DNA of 64,000 nt. Origin: Salipaludibacillus daqingensis (GTDB lineage: Bacteria > Bacillota > Bacilli > Bacillales > Salisediminibacteriaceae). Within the stretch, counting starts at the first letter, position 1; every line of letters starts with the position of its first letter. This document shows positions 21,679-52,666 of the stretch, one piece after another. The notes under the pieces were generated by a model. It was not told the origin of the DNA and searched no databases. It saw nothing but the letters and a program-made list of their open reading frames with translations. The position numbers were made by a program, and so were the translations under genes. The stretch lies in the NCBI RefSeq assembly GCF_029891575.1, contig NZ_JARZHF010000004.1, positions 186,001-250,000 of the forward strand. Direction: 5' to 3'.

Positions 21679-22103
21679 GATTATTCCCTTCCCTCTAAAA
21701 ATACCAATTATTCGCTGTTTATTATAGTACTAATTATACATGGTAATGGTCTGGTTTTTTAGATAAAAACGATATATATGCAAAATAATTTATATTTTAG
21801 GGTAGATATATATCTCTTTATGGTAAATTGATCCAAAACTTATCTAGAAAAACATATAACTGATACTCTATTTATGTAAAACGTTTATATTACTAGGGTG
21901 AATCCACAGACATAATGTGATTTTGGTATCATGTATTGAACATTACTGCTCACGTTCTACCAGCTAATATTATCGTTTTTAGGAGGTTTCAATTAGAGGA
22001 ACGCCCCTGACTTGTTCGCCAGCGTTAATCTAACGTACTTTCAAAAATATCACTGTCATTCAACAATCTGTATTATAAGATATAATTAAGTCAATTATTC
22101 TAC
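21679..22103. other. Intergenic region between dgcP and the rpsD promoter
   Basis: About 425 AT-rich bases without a supported gene. A strong ribosome-site-like AGGAGG at 21982-21987 is not followed by a usable start codon and frame. A short inverted repeat (CGTTAATCTAACG, about 22022-22034) is present. I cannot assign a function. Confidence 0.4.
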
Positions 22104-22132
22104 TTGACTTCACTAGTGAAAAATTATACACT
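22104..22132 (+). promoter_or_regulatory. Sigma-A-type promoter of rpsD
   Basis: TTGACT (22104-22109) and TACACT (22127-22132) are separated by 17 bases, a good housekeeping promoter. It lies about 190 bases upstream of the rpsD start and leaves room for the leader RNA. Confidence 0.65.
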
Positions 22133-22138
22133 GTACGT

Positions 22139-22320
22139 TGTGCAAATAAGATAGCCAATGTAAACGACATGTAGTTCATTTCATTCCCGCAAGCTGCGAG
22201 GGGTATTGCGTAACTTTTAGCTGTCGAGGCGAAGATACCAAAAATGAAATGTCTGTGTGTACGGGATTACAACTGTTAATTATTTCACGAAATCTTATCA
22301 TTTTAAAGGAGGAGACAAAT
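22139..22320 (+). ncRNA. S4-type autoregulatory leader of rpsD
   Basis: The rpsD transcript has a leader of about 180 bases. CATTTCATT (22177-22185) is exactly complementary to AATGAAATG (22243-22251) and closes a domain containing a GC-rich part and an inner GGTAT/ATACC pair (22202-22206 with 22235-22239). In B. subtilis ribosomal protein S4 represses its own gene by binding the rpsD leader; the position and structured nature here fit that element, and I infer homology rather than having aligned it. Confidence 0.6.
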
Positions 22321-22923
22321 ATGTCTCGATATACTGGACCAACATGGAAGCTTTCCCGTCGTCTTGGAATTTCTCTAAGCGGTACTGGAAAAGAGCTTCA
22401 AAAACGCCCTTACGGACCGGGGCAACACGGACCGAACTCTAGAAGAAAGTTAACTGAATACGGACTTCAGCTTCAAGAAAAGCAGAAGCTTCGTCACATG
22501 TACGGAATGACGGAACGTCAATTCAGCAAACTTTTTGAACAAGCTGGTAAGCAATCTGGTATCCATGGTGAAAACTTCATGATTCTTCTTGAATCACGTT
22601 TAGACAACCTAGTTTATCGTTTAGGCCTTACTCGCACTCGTGCGCAAGCTCGTCAATTAGTTAACCACGGTCACATCACTGTTGATGGAAGTCGCGTAGA
22701 CATCCCATCTTACCGTGTTCGTCCTGGTCAAACTCTTGGTCTTCGTGAAAAGTCACGTAACCTTGATATCGTTAAAACATCTCTTGAAGTTAACGACTTC
22801 ACACCAAGTTACGTTGAATTTGATGCAGATAAGTTAGAAGGAACTTTCACACGTTTACCTGAACGTTCTGAGCTACCTGCTGAAATCAACGAACAGTTAA
22901 TCGTTGAGTGGTACTCACGTTAA
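22321..22923 (+). CDS. rpsD: 30S ribosomal protein S4
   Basis: A 200-residue primary 16S rRNA-binding protein of the small subunit. It starts [20 protein letters not shown] and contains the S4 RNA-binding domain ([20 protein letters not shown]). I start at ATG 22321, preceded by AAAGGAGGAGACAA; the frame stays open upstream but that is leader sequence. It lacks the zinc-type N-terminal cysteines, so it is the non-zinc form. As in Bacillus, the gene stands alone. Confidence 0.98.
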
Positions 22924-22937
22924 TACGTACTTTTGGA

Positions 22938-22968
22938 AAGCACAGCCTTTATCGGCTGTGTTTTTTTT
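22938..22968 (+). terminator. rpsD terminator
   Basis: CACAGCC and GGCTGTG arms are followed by eight T residues immediately downstream of rpsD. Confidence 0.92.
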
Positions 22969-22996
22969 GTTAAATAAGGTTGTTGGATCTGATGAG

Positions 22997-23107
22997 TGCG
23001 CGGTAAATGTCGTTTTGCGCGCTGATTTCGTGGTGCTGCGCGCGTATTTACCAGTTTTGCGCGCGAAAATCATCGTTCAGCGCGCGCAAAACCCTAAATT
23101 TCCCAAA
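22997..23107 (-). repeat. 21-nt-periodic GCGCGC intergenic repeat element, copy 1 (five units)
   Basis: Read on the minus strand after the tyrS terminator, a lead TGGGAAATTTAGGGTTTT is followed by units that begin GCGCGC (the fifth GCGCAC) and repeat every 21 bases exactly, each with a 15-base variable AT-richer part. Copy 2 lies at 51121-51235 with the same lead, number of units, spacing and orientation. The GC-rich units stand out from the AT-rich surroundings. Function is unknown; 21 bases equal two helical turns, and also seven codons. Confidence 0.85.
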
Positions 23108-23109
23108 AA

Positions 23110-23145
23110 ATACCCCGGTACCATAACAATAGTACCAGGGCATCC
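23110..23145 (-). terminator. tyrS terminator
   Basis: CCCTGGTAC and GTACCGGGG arms (one mismatch) around a 10-base loop are followed by TATTTTTT on the minus strand, right after the tyrS stop. Confidence 0.8.
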
Positions 23146-23149
23146 TACG

Positions 23150-24427
<1,278 letters not shown>

Positions 24428-24540
24428 TCACCTCTAATTATGATTTAAACTATCTTTGCCTGCTTCGAAAACTAAATTGTTGTTTTGCTAAAAAATGAGA
24501 TTCACATACTACAAAAAGGGAAAGGTAGTATGTATCAACA

Positions 24541-24762
24541 AAAAAAACGCCCCTTAATAAATTAAGGGACGATTGAATCGCGGTACCACCCTGATTGGGA
24601 AAAGAAATTTCCCCAGCTCAAAATATGAGTTATCGCCTCATTGACGGTCCATGTTTCCACGGACAAACTCCAAGGTGGTAATTCATTTTACATCTGTGCA
24701 CCGATTCGCAGCTACCATCGGTTCTCTGAGACAGGGAGATGAAAATTACTATATCCTCTTCA
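24541..24762 (-). promoter_or_regulatory. T-box riboswitch leader of tyrS
   Basis: On the minus strand the T-box sequence AGGGTGGTACCGCG lies at 24592-24579, followed by a terminator hairpin (about 24571-24548) and a T run (24547-24541). Upstream is a stem I region with the GATGGTAGCTGCGAATCGGTG apical-loop block, at 24716-24696. A UAC (Tyr) triplet at 24680-24678, in TTACCA, is the candidate specifier codon. Uncharged tRNA-Tyr would bind and switch the terminator to the antiterminator, raising tyrS expression when tyrosine is short. Confidence 0.95.
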
Positions 24763-24920
24763 ACGTTTCGTTTATTTTGCTATATGATTTATATTTTTAT
24801 CATAACCTTCGTTTCGTTGTCAAACTTATTTTCAATAAGGGATCTAATTTTCCATCTAACGCTATATCATGAGCTCTAGAATATGCTATAATATGTTTGA
24901 CTTTTAGGAGGTTTGAATAA

Positions 24921-27900
24921 ATGAGTAAAGATAAATTTTCGCTAAAACAATTCTTTAGTAGAAAAGAACCTAAATATGTAATCAAAGGGGTTCGAGTAAC
25001 CTCTCAAGTTGTCTGGAATTTATTTTTAGTATTTGCAACGATAGGACTTATATCTATGTTTTTTGTTGGTGGTGCAGCTGCTGGCTACTTTGCATCATTA
25101 GTACAAGATGAAGAAATTCCAGAATATGAAGATATGGAAAGAGATATCTATGACTATGAAGAAGCCACAGAGGTTTACTTTAAAGATGACGTCTACTTAG
25201 GAGATTTACCAAGTCCTATTGAAAGAAGAGAAGCCTCATTAGACGATATTTCTGATAACTTAATAAATGCAGTTATCGCTACAGAAGATGAGTATTTCTT
25301 TGAACATGACGGCATTGTTCCTAAAGCATTATTTAGAGCAGTATTCCAAGATTTTTCAAATGCCACTACTCAAACGGGTGGAAGTACCTTAACGCAACAG
25401 CTTATTAAAAATCAAATTCTCACTAGTGAAGTGACCCATGATAGAAAAGCGGTGGAAATACTTCTTGCAATGAGAGCAGAAAACTTTTTTGAAAAAGAGC
25501 AAATTTTAGAAGCATATTTAAACGTTGTTCCATTCGGGAGAAATTCGTCCGGAAGACAAATTGCAGGGGCTCAAGCAGCTGCGGAAGGTATTTTCGATGT
25601 TGATGCTAGTGAATTAAATATTGCTCAAGCTGCCTTTATTGCTGGATTACCTCAAAGTCCTTTTGCATACACCCCATTTACGTCACAGGCAAATGTAAAA
25701 GAAGATTTTAATGCAGGATTGAATCGAATGCAAACCGTATTAAATCGAATGCATACGCACGGATATATATCAGACGAAGAATTTGAAGAAGCGCAAAATT
25801 ACGACATTCGCGAAAATTTAGCAGATCCGAAACCGAGTAGTTTTGATGCATATCCTGAAATTGTTCAGGAAGTTAATCGTAGAACACCGAGCAAATTATC
25901 TGAAGCGTTAATGGAAATTGATGACGTAGTTTTAGAAGACATTGAAGATGACGACCAAAGAGCATTAACAAAACAACGTTATGATGAAGAAGCCGCGCGC
26001 TCATTACAGCGTAACGGTTACAAAGTTCATTTAACGGTCGATAAAGATATATACGATGCTCAAAATGAAGCCGTGGAAAACTTTGAATATTTCGACGGAG
26101 AAAAACAAAGAACGGTAACAAATGAAGATGGTGATGAAGAAACACTAACTGAAATAGAAGAAACTGGGTCCGTTTTACAAGATAACCTTACGGGAGAAAT
26201 AATCAGCTTTGTGGCTGGACGAGATTATGAACAACAATCATTCAATCATGCTACACAAGCAGTAAGGTTAACTGGATCAACAATGAAACCTCTACTAACA
26301 TATGGTGTTGGTTTTGAAACTGGCGTTCTTCAACCAGGTTTCATAGCTCCTGATGTTCCGACAACTTATTCTTACAACGACCAAGAAGTACCTAACTTTG
26401 GCAGTAGTGATCCTCTAGGATTAATCACAGCTCGTGAAGCGTTGCAAAGATCAAGAAATACTTCCGCTGTTCGAGAGTATAGAAAGTTAGATCATGAAGA
26501 AGCAAGAGATTATTTAATTAAAATGGGGTTTGGTCCTTATCTTCCAGAAGATGCACCTTATGAAGCAACAGCATTAGGTACGTTAGGAATGACGAATGAA
26601 CGGAACACAAATGCTTATTCCCTTTTTGGAAATGAAGGTAAACGAGCGGAAAGTTATATGATTGCTCGCATTGAAGATTCCGATGGAAACGTCATTTATG
26701 AGCATGAAACGGAAGAAACGGAAGTCTTTTCTCCACAAACAAGTTATTTAATGATTGATATGATGCGTGACGTGTTAGAATCACCAGGTACAGCTTCAAA
26801 TTTACCAAACCTTTTAAACTTTTCTGCTGACTGGGCTGGGAAAACAGGGACGACAAATGGACCAGTAGACTATTGGTTTGTAGGGTTAAATCCAAATGTT
26901 ACGATGAGTGCTTGGTTGGGTTACGACAATAATGCAAGCCTAGGAGATGCAGAAGGATATAGTTACTCACAACGCACCCAAATGCTTTGGGCAGAGATGG
27001 CTAATGCGATTTATGACGTAAACCCTGATTTGATGGCACCTTCCGAGAATTTTGAGTCTCCTGGTGGAATTGTTCAGGAATCGGTATGCGGTATTTCCGG
27101 CATGCTACCATCTGATTTATGTCGTGAAGCGGGCCTTGTTACGACGGATTTATTTAACGTTGACTTCGTCCCAACAGAAACCGATGACAGTTTAACGAGA
27201 GTGCAATACGTTCGTGTTGATGATGGCATGTATAAAGCTTTAGACTCTACGCCGAGTGAGTTTACAAAATCTGGTGTTGCAGTAAAAGAAGAATACTTTG
27301 ATTTTGCAGACGACGGCGATATCTCTGAATATATTCCTGATGATTGGGATGATCTTGTCCCTGATAGAGACGCTCCAGATGATGGAAATACACCTGGAAC
27401 ACTCAGCTCAGTATCTGAATCGGGCAATAGTATTTCTTGGAACGAACATCCAGAAGGTGATGTTGTAGGATACAGAGTATACTTCTCCCCTAGTGAAGGT
27501 GAAAGTTTCAGAGAAGTGGACAGTGTTCGCTGGGATGAAGATTACAGCTACTCAGGTAGTCAAGGTGCTTATTACGTCACGGCTGTTGATGTAACAGGAC
27601 GTGAATCATCACCAAGTAGTGAAGTGATCATAGGCACGTTCTCTTCCCCTGAACCGGATGAGGATGAAGATGAAGACGAAACAGAAGAACAAGAACCGGA
27701 ATCTGATTCTGAGGAAGGTTCTCCTGATAACGATAATTCCAACAATGAAAACAACAATGCTACTAGAGAAGAAGAAGAAAATAACAACAATGATGATAAT
27801 GAAAATAATAATGAAAACAACAACAATAACAACAACAATAACAACAACAATAACGACAATGAAAACAATAATGACAATGACGGTAATGAAGACAATAATG

Positions 27901-28046
27901 ACAACAACAATAACGATGACAATAATAATGGTAACAACAATAACGATAATAATAATCTCAATACAAATAGCATTAACGAGAACGAAAACAATAATAGTAA
28001 CAATACAAATAACAATGATAGCAACGAAAATAATCAAAACAACTAA
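24921..28046 (+). CDS. Class A penicillin-binding protein (PBP1A family) with Asn-rich tail
   Basis: A 1041-residue bifunctional peptidoglycan synthase. A short cytoplasmic part and a membrane segment (about residues 32-60) precede a GT51 transglycosylase domain with E122 in ATEDEYFFEHDG and GGSTLTQQLIKNQ, then a transpeptidase domain with S453 (GSTMKP), SRN at 511-513 and KTG at 641-643. A fibronectin-III-like region (about 830-905) is followed by an acidic then Asn/Asp-rich low-complexity tail (about 907-1041). B. subtilis PonA also has an Asn-rich tail, but recU, the usual ponA partner, is absent here. Start: TAGGAGG before ATG 24921. Confidence 0.93.
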   Translation: MSKDKFSLKQFFSRKEPKYVIKGVRVTSQVVWNLFLVFATIGLISMFFVGGAAAGYFASLVQDEEIPEYEDMERDIYDYEEATEVYFKDDVYLGDLPSPIERREASLDDISDNLINAVIATEDEYFFEHDGIVPKALFRAVFQDFSNATTQTGGSTLTQQLIKNQILTSEVTHDRKAVEILLAMRAENFFEKEQILEAYLNVVPFGRNSSGRQIAGAQAAAEGIFDVDASELNIAQAAFIAGLPQSPFAYTPFTSQANVKEDFNAGLNRMQTVLNRMHTHGYISDEEFEEAQNYDIRENLADPKPSSFDAYPEIVQEVNRRTPSKLSEALMEIDDVVLEDIEDDDQRALTKQRYDEEAARSLQRNGYKVHLTVDKDIYDAQNEAVENFEYFDGEKQRTVTNEDGDEETLTEIEETGSVLQDNLTGEIISFVAGRDYEQQSFNHATQAVRLTGSTMKPLLTYGVGFETGVLQPGFIAPDVPTTYSYNDQEVPNFGSSDPLGLITAREALQRSRNTSAVREYRKLDHEEARDYLIKMGFGPYLPEDAPYEATALGTLGMTNERNTNAYSLFGNEGKRAESYMIARIEDSDGNVIYEHETEETEVFSPQTSYLMIDMMRDVLESPGTASNLPNLLNFSADWAGKTGTTNGPVDYWFVGLNPNVTMSAWLGYDNNASLGDAEGYSYSQRTQMLWAEMANAIYDVNPDLMAPSENFESPGGIVQESVCGISGMLPSDLCREAGLVTTDLFNVDFVPTETDDSLTRVQYVRVDDGMYKALDSTPSEFTKSGVAVKEEYFDFADDGDISEYIPDDWDDLVPDRDAPDDGNTPGTLSSVSESGNSISWNEHPEGDVVGYRVYFSPSEGESFREVDSVRWDEDYSYSGSQGAYYVTAVDVTGRESSPSSEVIIGTFSSPEPDEDEDEDETEEQEPESDSEEGSPDNDNSNNENNNATREEEENNNNDDNENNNENNNNNNNNNNNNNDNENNNDNDGNEDNNDNNNNDDNNNGNNNNDNNNLNTNSINENENNNSNNTNNNDSNENNQNN
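27780..28040 (+). repeat. AAC/AAT/GAC trinucleotide-rich tract coding the Asn tail
   Basis: The 3' end of the PBP gene is a nearly pure run of AAC, AAT, GAC, GAT and GAA codons, with an uninterrupted stretch of Asn codons near 27814-27854. Its in-frame triplet nature means length changes by slippage would preserve the reading frame. Confidence 0.85.
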
Positions 28047-50096: not shown

Positions 50097-50534
50097 ATGA
50101 ACTTAACAGTATACTTAGCAGGACAAATTCACGATGACTGGCGCACAGAAATTAAGAAGAAAGCAAAAAACTTACCAATTCAATTTGTTGGACCAATGGA
50201 AAACCATGATCGTTCTGACAATATTGGGGAAGAAATCTTAGGGGAACAACCAAGTTCCATTTATAAAGACGAGGCTGCTTCAAAATTTAATAATTTGAGA
50301 ACTCGTATTTTAATGGAAAAGTCAGATGTCGTTATTGCATTATTTGGCGAAAAATATAAACAATGGAACAGTGCTGCCGACGCTGCATCAGCAGTTGCTC
50401 TTAACAAACCACTTATTTTAGTTCGCTCAAAAGACCTTCATCATCCTTTAAAAGAATTATCTGAAAAAGCACAAGTCACTGTAGAAAATGTTGATCAAGC
50501 GATCCAAGCTCTTTCTTACATTTTTGAATCATAA
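50097..50534 (+). CDS. ytoQ: YtoQ-family protein
   Basis: A 145-residue conserved cytoplasmic protein of the YtoQ family. The N-terminal part (MNLTVYLAGQIHDDWR) and the stretch NLRTRILMEKSDVVIALFGE resemble nucleoside 2-deoxyribosyltransferase-like folds, but the activity is not established. TGGAGGGATTAATTT precedes the ATG. Its 3' end overlaps the convergent DUF84 gene by six bases. Confidence 0.9.
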   Translation: MNLTVYLAGQIHDDWRTEIKKKAKNLPIQFVGPMENHDRSDNIGEEILGEQPSSIYKDEAASKFNNLRTRILMEKSDVVIALFGEKYKQWNSAADAASAVALNKPLILVRSKDLHHPLKELSEKAQVTVENVDQAIQALSYIFES

Positions 50535-51074
50535 TACATCGACGTCACTAAATGGTGGCGTCTTTTTGTTATTAAAGTGATAAAGTTGGCCCAATAACAT
50601 ACTATTTATTTGGCTGAACATCGTCGTACGATCCAAAAGACCTTCGGTAAAAACTCCAATCGCCCCTTCATTACTTCGTACATTATGCTTTTTTGTCCAG
50701 ACCTCCATTACCTCTCCTAACTCTAAACCATCATTCATTCTATTTTGCACGAATGATGGGAGAGGTATCCTTGCACCCGCTGCAACGAAAATATGCCCTT
50801 GTTTTGTTGCAAGCGCCCCCCAATTGCATAAATAAAGTTGGTCTTCTATCGTCATAACACCTCCCTCAAGTCCAATGCCTATATCAACAAGCTTATGCTC
50901 AACGAGATAGGTTGCGCGTTGAACTGCCCCTTGTTTTGTTTCCTTATCTGACATTGGTTGATTGGAGACATGAGAAGGTGCATTACACCCTTCCACGTTA
51001 TATTTATGACCGAAAACAGTTTCAACGGATTTTATTTTAGCTGGATTCATCGAACCAACATAGATTTTTTGCAA
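50529..51074 (-). CDS. DUF84 inosine/xanthosine triphosphatase-like protein
   Basis: A 181-residue protein of the DUF84/YjjX type, which removes non-canonical purine nucleoside triphosphates (ITP/XTP). Signatures are VGSMNPAKIKSVETVF at the N terminus and VDIGIGLEGGV. The start is TTG at 51074 after AAGGGAGTG. The catalytic assignment follows family membership only. Repeat element copy 2 lies in its upstream region. Confidence 0.8.
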   Translation of the reverse strand: MQKIYVGSMNPAKIKSVETVFGHKYNVEGCNAPSHVSNQPMSDKETKQGAVQRATYLVEHKLVDIGIGLEGGVMTIEDQLYLCNWGALATKQGHIFVAAGARIPLPSFVQNRMNDGLELGEVMEVWTKKHNVRSNEGAIGVFTEGLLDRTTMFSQINSMLLGQLYHFNNKKTPPFSDVDVL

Positions 51075-51120
51075 AAATGTTCACTCCCTTATAAATAATG
51101 ATCTTATAGTTATCGTGTTG

Positions 51121-51235
51121 TGCGCGGGAATAGCCATTTTGTGCGCGGAATTCCTGGTGTTTCGCGCGTTAAATGACGTTTGGCGCGCATAAATAGCCAA
51201 TTTGCGCGCGATAAACCCTAATATTCCCATTATTA
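51121..51235 (-). repeat. 21-nt-periodic GCGCGC intergenic repeat element, copy 2 (five units)
   Basis: On the minus strand, after the ytoP terminator, TGGGAATATTAGGGTTTAT leads into units starting GCGCGC, GCGCGC, GCGCGA, GCGCAC and GCGCAC at exact 21-base steps. Lead sequence, unit count and orientation match copy 1 at 22997-23107. The element ends about 50 bases upstream of the DUF84 gene. Confidence 0.85.
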
Positions 51236-51246
51236 ATCCAAAAAAG

Positions 51247-51276
51247 AGAAAGCCTCATTAACAAAATGAGGCTTCC
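51247..51276 (-). terminator. ytoP terminator
   Basis: AAGCCTCATT and AATGAGGCTT form a perfect 10-bp stem with a five-base loop, followed by TCTCTTTTTT on the minus strand. Confidence 0.9.
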
Positions 51277-51284
51277 AAAATCAC

Positions 51285-52358
51285 TTAAACATTGTCACGA
51301 ATGGTATTCAATGTCGTTTGATCAGTGTTTCTTACGAGCGTAGTGATCAATTCTTTCGCTGCTGCGTAATCATCGACATGAATCATAGATGCCGCTGTGT
51401 GGATATACCTTGAACAAATACCAATGACTGCTGACGGAACACCACTATTGGATATATGTACCCTTCCCGCGTCCGTTCCACCTTGAGAGACAAAAAATTG
51501 ATAAGGTATATTATTTGTTTCGGCCGTATCAAGAATAAATTCACGCATCCCCCGGTGCGTAATCATCGTTCGATCAAAGATTCTTAATAGAGCCCCTTTA
51601 CCTAAATGTCCAAACGCGTCTTTTTCCCCAGAAGCATCGTTCGCAGGACTTGCATCCAACGCATAAAAAATGTCTGGTTGAATCATATTTGCTGATGCTT
51701 GAGCGCCTCTAAGTCCAACTTCTTCTTGGACAGTGGCACCAGAATATAAGATATTGGGTGTTTTTTCACCTTTTAATTCTTTTAATAACTCGATCGATAG
51801 ACCAACACCATATCGATTATCCCAAGCCTTCGCTAAAATCTTTTTTTCATTTGCAAGCTTTTCCATAGGGCAGATTGGCACAATCTGTTGTCCAGGTTTG
51901 ATTCCAATCTTTATCGCATCTTCCCGATCATCTGCACCAATATCAATATACATATTTTTAATTTCCATTGGTTTGCTTCGTTTTGCTTCGTCAAGTAAAT
52001 GAGGAGGAACAGAACCAATAACCCCAGTAACCGGTCCATTTTCTGTCATAATCTTCAGCCGCTGTGCCAAGAGGACTTGACTCCACCAGCCCCCTAGTGT
52101 TTGAAAACGGATCAACCCTTTTTCATCAATGGAAGTAACCATAAATCCGACCTCATCCATGTGGCCTGCTACCATCACTTTTGGTCCTTGTGAATCACCT
52201 CTTTTGATACCAAAAACTCCACCTAAACGGTCTTGAATCACTTCATCGCTATATTTTTCTAATTCTTTTTTTACGTAAGCCCTTACTTCATGTTCAAATC
52301 CAGGAGCTCCTGGAAGCTGTGTCAATGTTTCAAACATCTTATACGTTTCTTGTCTCAT
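51285..52358 (-). CDS. ytoP: M42-family aminopeptidase YtoP
   Basis: A 357-residue dinuclear-metal aminopeptidase of family M42 (glutamyl/deblocking aminopeptidase type). Metal and catalytic residues lie in [14 protein letters not shown] (H66, D68), [29 protein letters not shown] and [13 protein letters not shown]. The start is 52358, preceded by GAAGGGAGA; the frame extends upstream without a better site. It adjoins ytzB as in B. subtilis. Confidence 0.94.
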
Positions 52359-52666
52359 CAAAAATCTCCCTTCCATGGTTTTTCTATGTACTCATTCTAT
52401 TTTAACGAAATGTCTGATCAGTTTCCACTTTTTTCGAAAACCGAAAGATCTCCCCACTCTAAATAAGTCTATTTATTTGCGGTTATAATAAATATTAGCC
52501 TCATTCTACCTCTCGATTTTAAGATTAGAAAACAAAAATTAAATCCTCCATCAAATTCTGTTAAAATGAAGGAGAGATAGTTGGTCATTTCTATGATGTT
52601 TCGCTATACTTAGTTATAGAAACATGTACTGATTTTATTTTTAATAATCGAAAGAAGGTGTCTTTC

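Follow-up and report, generated by a model that had tools for sequence, protein, structure and literature searches.

Plasmid origins carry iterons, direct repeats set about two helical turns apart beside an AT-rich stretch, and KOPS and SRS are polar DNA motifs that are read by FtsK and SpoIIIE. Little is known of the extragenic repeats that lie scattered through the genomes of Gram-positive bacteria. In the accessible text of PMC3733652, REPs are palindromes of 20-40 bp, most of which carry a GTAG or CGTC tag. The accessible parts of PMC3049150 and PMC3733652 also describe small interspersed repeats of Gram-positive chromosomes, namely BOX and RUP of pneumococcus and bcr1 of Bacillus cereus, respectively.

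We analysed a 64,000-nucleotide stretch of the Salipaludibacillus daqingensis genome, referred to as the window, and found at 22996-23107 a copy of an extragenic element that is dispersed, apparently does not code for protein and typically consists of five GCGC(GC/AC) boxes spaced 21 bp apart. With plasmid iterons this array shares a repeat step of about two helical turns (21 bp) and a position next to an AT-rich stretch, but arrays of this kind lie in many chromosomal spacers, their interiors are not conserved, and no replication initiator gene stands beside the window array, whose neighbors are rpsD and tyrS. As with KOPS and SRS, orientation correlates with replication in two other genomes, G149 (from another family of the order) and G015, with skew sampled along the whole contig; the arrays differ from these motifs in being phased rows of five boxes, in their polarity of about 80%, in their low copy number, and in showing no clear polarity in the genome studied here. 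Like the REP and BIME elements covered by the accessible text of PMC3733652, the arrays are dispersed, extragenic and, in some genomes, present in high copy, whereas the window element is built of five asymmetric units with a 21-bp period and has no tag (neither GTAG nor CGTC occurs in 22996-23107 on either strand). Phased tandem boxes are not mentioned for BOX, RUP or bcr1 in the accessible parts of PMC3049150 and PMC3733652, and no title or abstract opening in our literature search, which had partial open-access coverage, describes such arrays. In kind, then, these are dispersed extragenic repeats, and what is new about them is the helical phasing, the usual number of five boxes and the genome-specific interiors.

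The window array and its surroundings are as follows.

22321-22923, plus strand: rpsD, ribosomal protein S4 (Pfam PF00163)
22935-22966, plus strand: putative terminator hairpin of rpsD, found by folding, with a T tail after it
22996-23107, minus strand: five-box array with a step of 21, box starts (plus coordinates) at 23080, 23059, 23038, 23017 (GCGCGC) and 22996 (GCGCAC)
23080-23085, 23059-23064, 23038-23043 and 23017-23022 (plus coordinates): the GCGCGC boxes
22996-23001 (plus coordinates): the GCGCAC box
23086-23104, minus strand: tyrS-side end of the element, GGGAAATTTAGGGTTTTGC on the minus strand, similar in the second array described below (GGGAATATTAGGGTTT)
23109-23144, minus strand: putative terminator hairpin of tyrS, found by folding, with a T tail
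23150-24424, minus strand: tyrS, tyrosyl-tRNA synthetase (Pfam PF00579)

The rpsD (plus) and tyrS (minus) genes are convergent, and the array occupies much of their spacer, between the two hairpins, neither of which was reported by a strict consensus terminator scan. A T-box leader lies upstream of tyrS at 24562-24772 on the minus strand (Rfam RF00230, 127.5 bits). Read on the minus strand, the array consists of four GCGCGC boxes and then GCGCAC in exact 21-bp steps (box span 22996-23085), so that the five units and exact period described in an earlier note on this DNA are confirmed by the coordinates. They are also confirmed by shuffling: the 64-kb window contains eight three-box GCGC runs at a fixed period of 21 (five of them four-box runs) and one at 23, and 300 first-order Markov shuffles of it gave no three-box run at any period from 15 to 30. 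The same note had proposed an AAAAC...ATTTNC pattern for the unit interiors, which is loose yet real: in 25 units drawn from five arrays, A/T fills column 18 in 24 and column 19 in 23, and C fills column 21 in 19.

A second five-box array, absent from the earlier note, lies in the same window between genes for an M42 aminopeptidase and a DUF84 protein.

50529-51074, minus strand: DUF84 gene (Pfam PF01931)
51120-51220, minus strand: second five-box array, starts (plus coordinates) at 51120, 51141 (GTGCGC), 51162 (TCGCGC), 51183 and 51204 (GCGCGC)
51248-51276, minus strand: terminator of the M42 peptidase gene, adjoining the second array
51285-52376, minus strand: M42 aminopeptidase gene (Pfam PF05343)

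The two window arrays have the end GGGAAWWTTAGGGTTT in common, on the tyrS side and on the peptidase side, respectively. The search for further copies that the earlier note called for yielded at least 12 extragenic arrays in this genome, both window copies included. They lie on contigs C2 (391 kb), C3 (59, 82.7, 91.9, 190.5 and 192 kb), C4 (209 and 237 kb), C5 (272 kb), C6 (14 kb), C8 (6 kb) and C17 (4 kb); a three-box match on C10, where a 487-aa open frame begins, was excluded from the count. By our reading of the open frames, with names assigned partly by eye, about four of the spacers are convergent, six co-directional and two divergent.

The clearest view of what is conserved comes from arrays that have diverged from each other. 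Among five such arrays in this genome (both window arrays, C3:91.9, C6 and C8), pairwise identity is 0.83-0.93 in the boxes, part of which is ascertainment since arrays were detected through GCGC boxes, and 0.31-0.46 in the interiors, where composition alone predicts 0.28. In these same arrays 20/20 spacings are exactly 21, so the helical phasing that the earlier note had pointed to is indeed kept from array to array. The identity count omits a sixth diverged array, C3:82.7, on account of its boxes GCGCGT and ACGCGC; on the common core CGCG, its five boxes too stand exactly 21 apart. Boxes and spacing have therefore been kept while the interiors diverged nearly to saturation.

Wider counts of spacings, which allow for register artefacts of overlapping GCGCGC (apparent 19 and 23), give the same period. 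It is found in 49/54 GCGC spacings of 11 arrays from this genome, and in 450/507 spacings of 57 arrays from 27 other genomes, hand-chosen out of 41 with array loci; in nine arrays from the remaining 14, which were run separately, 45/45 spacings are 21. The rest of the 507 fall at 20 (35 spacings), 19 (12), 18 (8), 23 (1) and 24 (1), with none at 22, so that a step of 20 is accepted more readily than one of 22. Because a good number of the arrays arose by recent tandem duplication, and tandem copies inherit their spacing, much of the 450/507 is non-independent, and the diverged arrays are the better evidence. This distinction bears on a neutral minisatellite, in which slipped-strand copying of a 21-bp unit would have built the arrays without any function. 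Some arrays are uniform and some show super-periods of about 82-103 bp, as such a process might produce, but the units are not alike over their whole length (interiors 0.31-0.46, boxes 0.83-0.93), and without selection boxes and phase would be expected to decay jointly, whereas the diverged arrays keep both over saturated interiors. We consider a minisatellite origin improbable.

The period of 21 bp is also seven codons, and it would suit a small protein of repeated heptads, of VLRA or ARK type. The VLRA heptads of the plus strand sit within a 112-aa open frame (22904-23242), a second open frame, of 52 aa, crosses the window array, and at least one of six frames is open in 11/12 arrays of this genome. 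However, only 9/57 of the non-21 spacings preserve a reading frame, which means that the period is not tied to codons; all six frames of the C5 array contain a stop, leaving no frame open in every array of the genome; and the 112-aa frame has no Pfam or NCBIfam match at E values up to 1. Coding was rejected on these grounds, in agreement with the earlier note, and we find a heptad protein scarcely credible.

An RNA element, or an aid to termination in the 3' regions of neighboring genes, would fit the placement of the arrays in G149, where 14 copies are convergent and three divergent among the 34 with both neighbors called. Together with its flanking hairpins the window array folds well, with z scores of -6.1 and -4.2, although the low energies behind these scores include the hairpins themselves. 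With the boxes kept constant, ten tests find no folding contributed by the interiors (z between -0.7 and 1.9), T-tailed hairpins already stand on both sides of the array, and the sole Rfam match at gathering score in 21900-25000 is the T-box leader. A transcript-level function, one of the options in the earlier note, thus finds no footing in folding beyond the fixed boxes, and we regard it as very improbable. The same folding result means that the stem-loop palindrome of a REP is not seen here. Z-DNA or supercoiling, also raised in the earlier note, finds no support, and Z-DNA was set aside, since in many other genomes the box is just GCGC, which would be too short for it.

Across the order the element is patchy. 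Counting this genome in every case, three exact GCGCRC boxes occur in 7/150 genomes, four GCGC boxes with one mismatch or none in 14/35 genomes of the family, and five exact GCGC boxes in 33/397 genomes of the order, representing 27/135 genera. The four-box search found nothing in 6/7 genus-mates and 13 matches in the seventh, G007. Each genome has interiors of its own, such as GCGCAACTTCTC in G015 or CTCCTATGCGC in G008. Among the first arrays read in other genomes, those at L185, L187, L190, L191, L198 and L208 are uniform or coding-looking. A reversed-pattern control proved not to be neutral, as GCGCGC contains CGCG. Eight genomes (G011, G079, G117, G123, G147, G223, G349 and G406) have the control (CGCG) five-box pattern without an exact GCGC five-box array and possibly contain arrays with a different box.

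The fullest picture of a discrete element comes from G149, in which we lined up 39 copies from about 100 of 106 oriented matches. The leader TTTTTCCATTTTCTTGCTGCATTT directly precedes the first box, and 34/39 copies score at least 20 of 29 over leader plus first box. Units read GCGCGNAAA, with GCTC as the third box in 12/39, and exactly five boxes are present in 28/39 copies. Spacings are 21 in 137/143 cases, the six others being 20 (twice), 22 (once), 23 (twice) and 24 (once). When all 397 genomes were searched with the leader followed by two boxes, G149 gave 12 matches, this genome a single one and the remaining 395 none, and the reversed pattern matched nowhere; the pattern was built from G149 and this genome, so that only its absence elsewhere counts as a test. 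The leader core TTTCCATTTTTTGG is present at two arrays here, C3:82.7 and C3:91.9, and the end shared by the two window arrays differs from the G149 leader.

Upstream of G149 arrays there is a second, mosaic repeat system (for example at L394, L396, L397, L408, L413, L415 and L432), with modules joined by GCTAGACAAGAAAAGCGGAGG-like stretches. A mosaic module directly precedes 13 (strict motif) to 16 (loose motif) of the 39 arrays, and an Rfam search of seven G149 loci at E values up to 1 returned two matches only, both far below gathering scores. The same 396-aa open frame, presumably an IS256-type transposase, lies beside four of the 39 elements (L407, L412, L423 and L431).

Comparison of orthologous spacers provides a view of gain and loss. 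Judged by TyrS, the nearest named relative of this genome is Salipaludibacillus keqinensis (91%), and its rpsD-tyrS spacer has three degenerate boxes exactly 21 bp apart, with 2/12 mismatches (4 at the best other period). Shuffles matched this spacer in 4/20,000 cases with base composition and 1/5,000 with a Markov model, for an array that had been spotted by eye before the test. The comparison covered 31 distinct spacers from 32 loci, two being from the same genome. None of the other 30 orthologous convergent rpsD-tyrS spacers reaches the S. keqinensis level at 21; two come to within three mismatches, and in a 2600-bp spacer two mismatches are reached at a different period. At the spacer orthologous to that of the second array, no array was seen by eye in seven genus-mates. 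Conservation of the period at orthologous loci, on which the earlier note had staked its reading, accordingly holds in decayed form in S. keqinensis but is not seen at the 30 other rpsD-tyrS spacers or, on inspection by eye, at the spacers orthologous to that of the second array in the seven genus-mates. Taken with the further copies in the genome, the checks set by that note gave a mixed outcome that is for the most part favorable, and its interpretation is supported in part. In G149 the hemL-spoVID spacer contains the element together with a mosaic module, and by eye the spacers are shorter and lack it in all six relatives in which they can be read (G036, G371, G119, G225, G082 and G176); G352 and G200 were unreadable across the spacer.

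The copies also have a preferred direction. In G149, whose replication arms were drawn from GC skew at 21 places (one sample, at 2.12 Mb, is off pattern), 31/39 copies have their leader on the strand opposite the leading strand (p 0.0003), as do 20/25 when the 14 copies at 2.74-2.80 Mb are left out (p 0.004). The bias is present at copies whose neighboring genes are convergent, divergent or both lagging (17/20 opposite), and 9/14 copies with both neighbors leading are opposite as well. By hand count among the matches listed, 17/22 clusters in G015 show the same bias (p 0.017). In the genome studied here we found no clear link between array orientation and local GC skew, with unit direction partly ambiguous.

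A comparable strand bias is familiar from IS200/IS605-type elements and fits a selfish, REP- or MITE-like repeat that is mobilized in trans by a transposase, whether of the single-strand HUH type or working through reverse transcription at nicks. Only that enzyme would read the boxes, and the host would gain no function from them. Such a repeat would account for the dispersal of copies that share a leader and mostly have five boxes, for the hemL-spoVID element and module absent, by eye, from the six readable relatives, for the lack by eye of the second array in the genus-mates, and for the bias in G015 and in G149, including those copies whose direction the neighboring genes do not predict. 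Yet no transposase gene was noticed regularly beside the arrays whose neighborhoods were read, searches of plasmid and phage records with the window array and with one G149 copy returned nothing at an E value of 0.01, and mobility alone leaves saturated interiors with unchanged boxes unexplained. With respect to a MITE, whose terminal inverted repeats and target-site duplication would be putative here, element-free spacers were seen for one G149 copy. We regard a purely selfish repeat as possible but, on balance, doubtful.

Taken together, the kept boxes and phase, the saturated interiors, the greater tolerance of 20 than of 22, and the lack of coding signs and of RNA folding beyond the boxes speak for a constraint at the level of DNA. 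We therefore favor, with a probability of roughly one half, an extragenic element akin to REPs in which a row of putative protein-binding boxes, set in helical phase, is what is conserved; the array probably serves as a landing array for a putative DNA-binding protein. Selection would act on a row of predicted binding sites on one face of the helix, and one subunit of a protein that binds cooperatively may touch each box and the A/T next to it. More tentatively, copies could be gained in intergenic spacers by duplication or by mobilization in trans, and the interiors might be homogenized or drift, species by species. Gain of the element and the strand bias fit mobilization in trans, as in REP systems, and the protein-binding and mobile-repeat readings may both be true together.

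A bolder extension of the protein-binding reading, which we consider speculative and rather unlikely, is that these are chromosomal landmark arrays found in many Bacillales genomes, with about five phased GCGC boxes and a preferred direction relative to replication. They would be read by a putative fast-evolving, species-specific multimeric DNA-binding protein that organizes, segregates or marks the chromosome; the boxes would stay conserved, and the interiors would follow whichever form of the protein is present locally.

A family in which helical phase and, as a rule, the number of boxes persist as the rest drifts points to a function at the DNA level and offers a testable target for finding the protein. 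The arrays also call for care in annotation, as they are often read as open frames of heptad repeats and could be called proteins. Elsewhere in the window, 27798-28030 contains 12-bp and 27-bp tandem repeats and encodes a low-complexity tail rich in Asn and Asp; the 1041-aa protein to which this tail belongs resembles, in our reading, a class A penicillin-binding protein.
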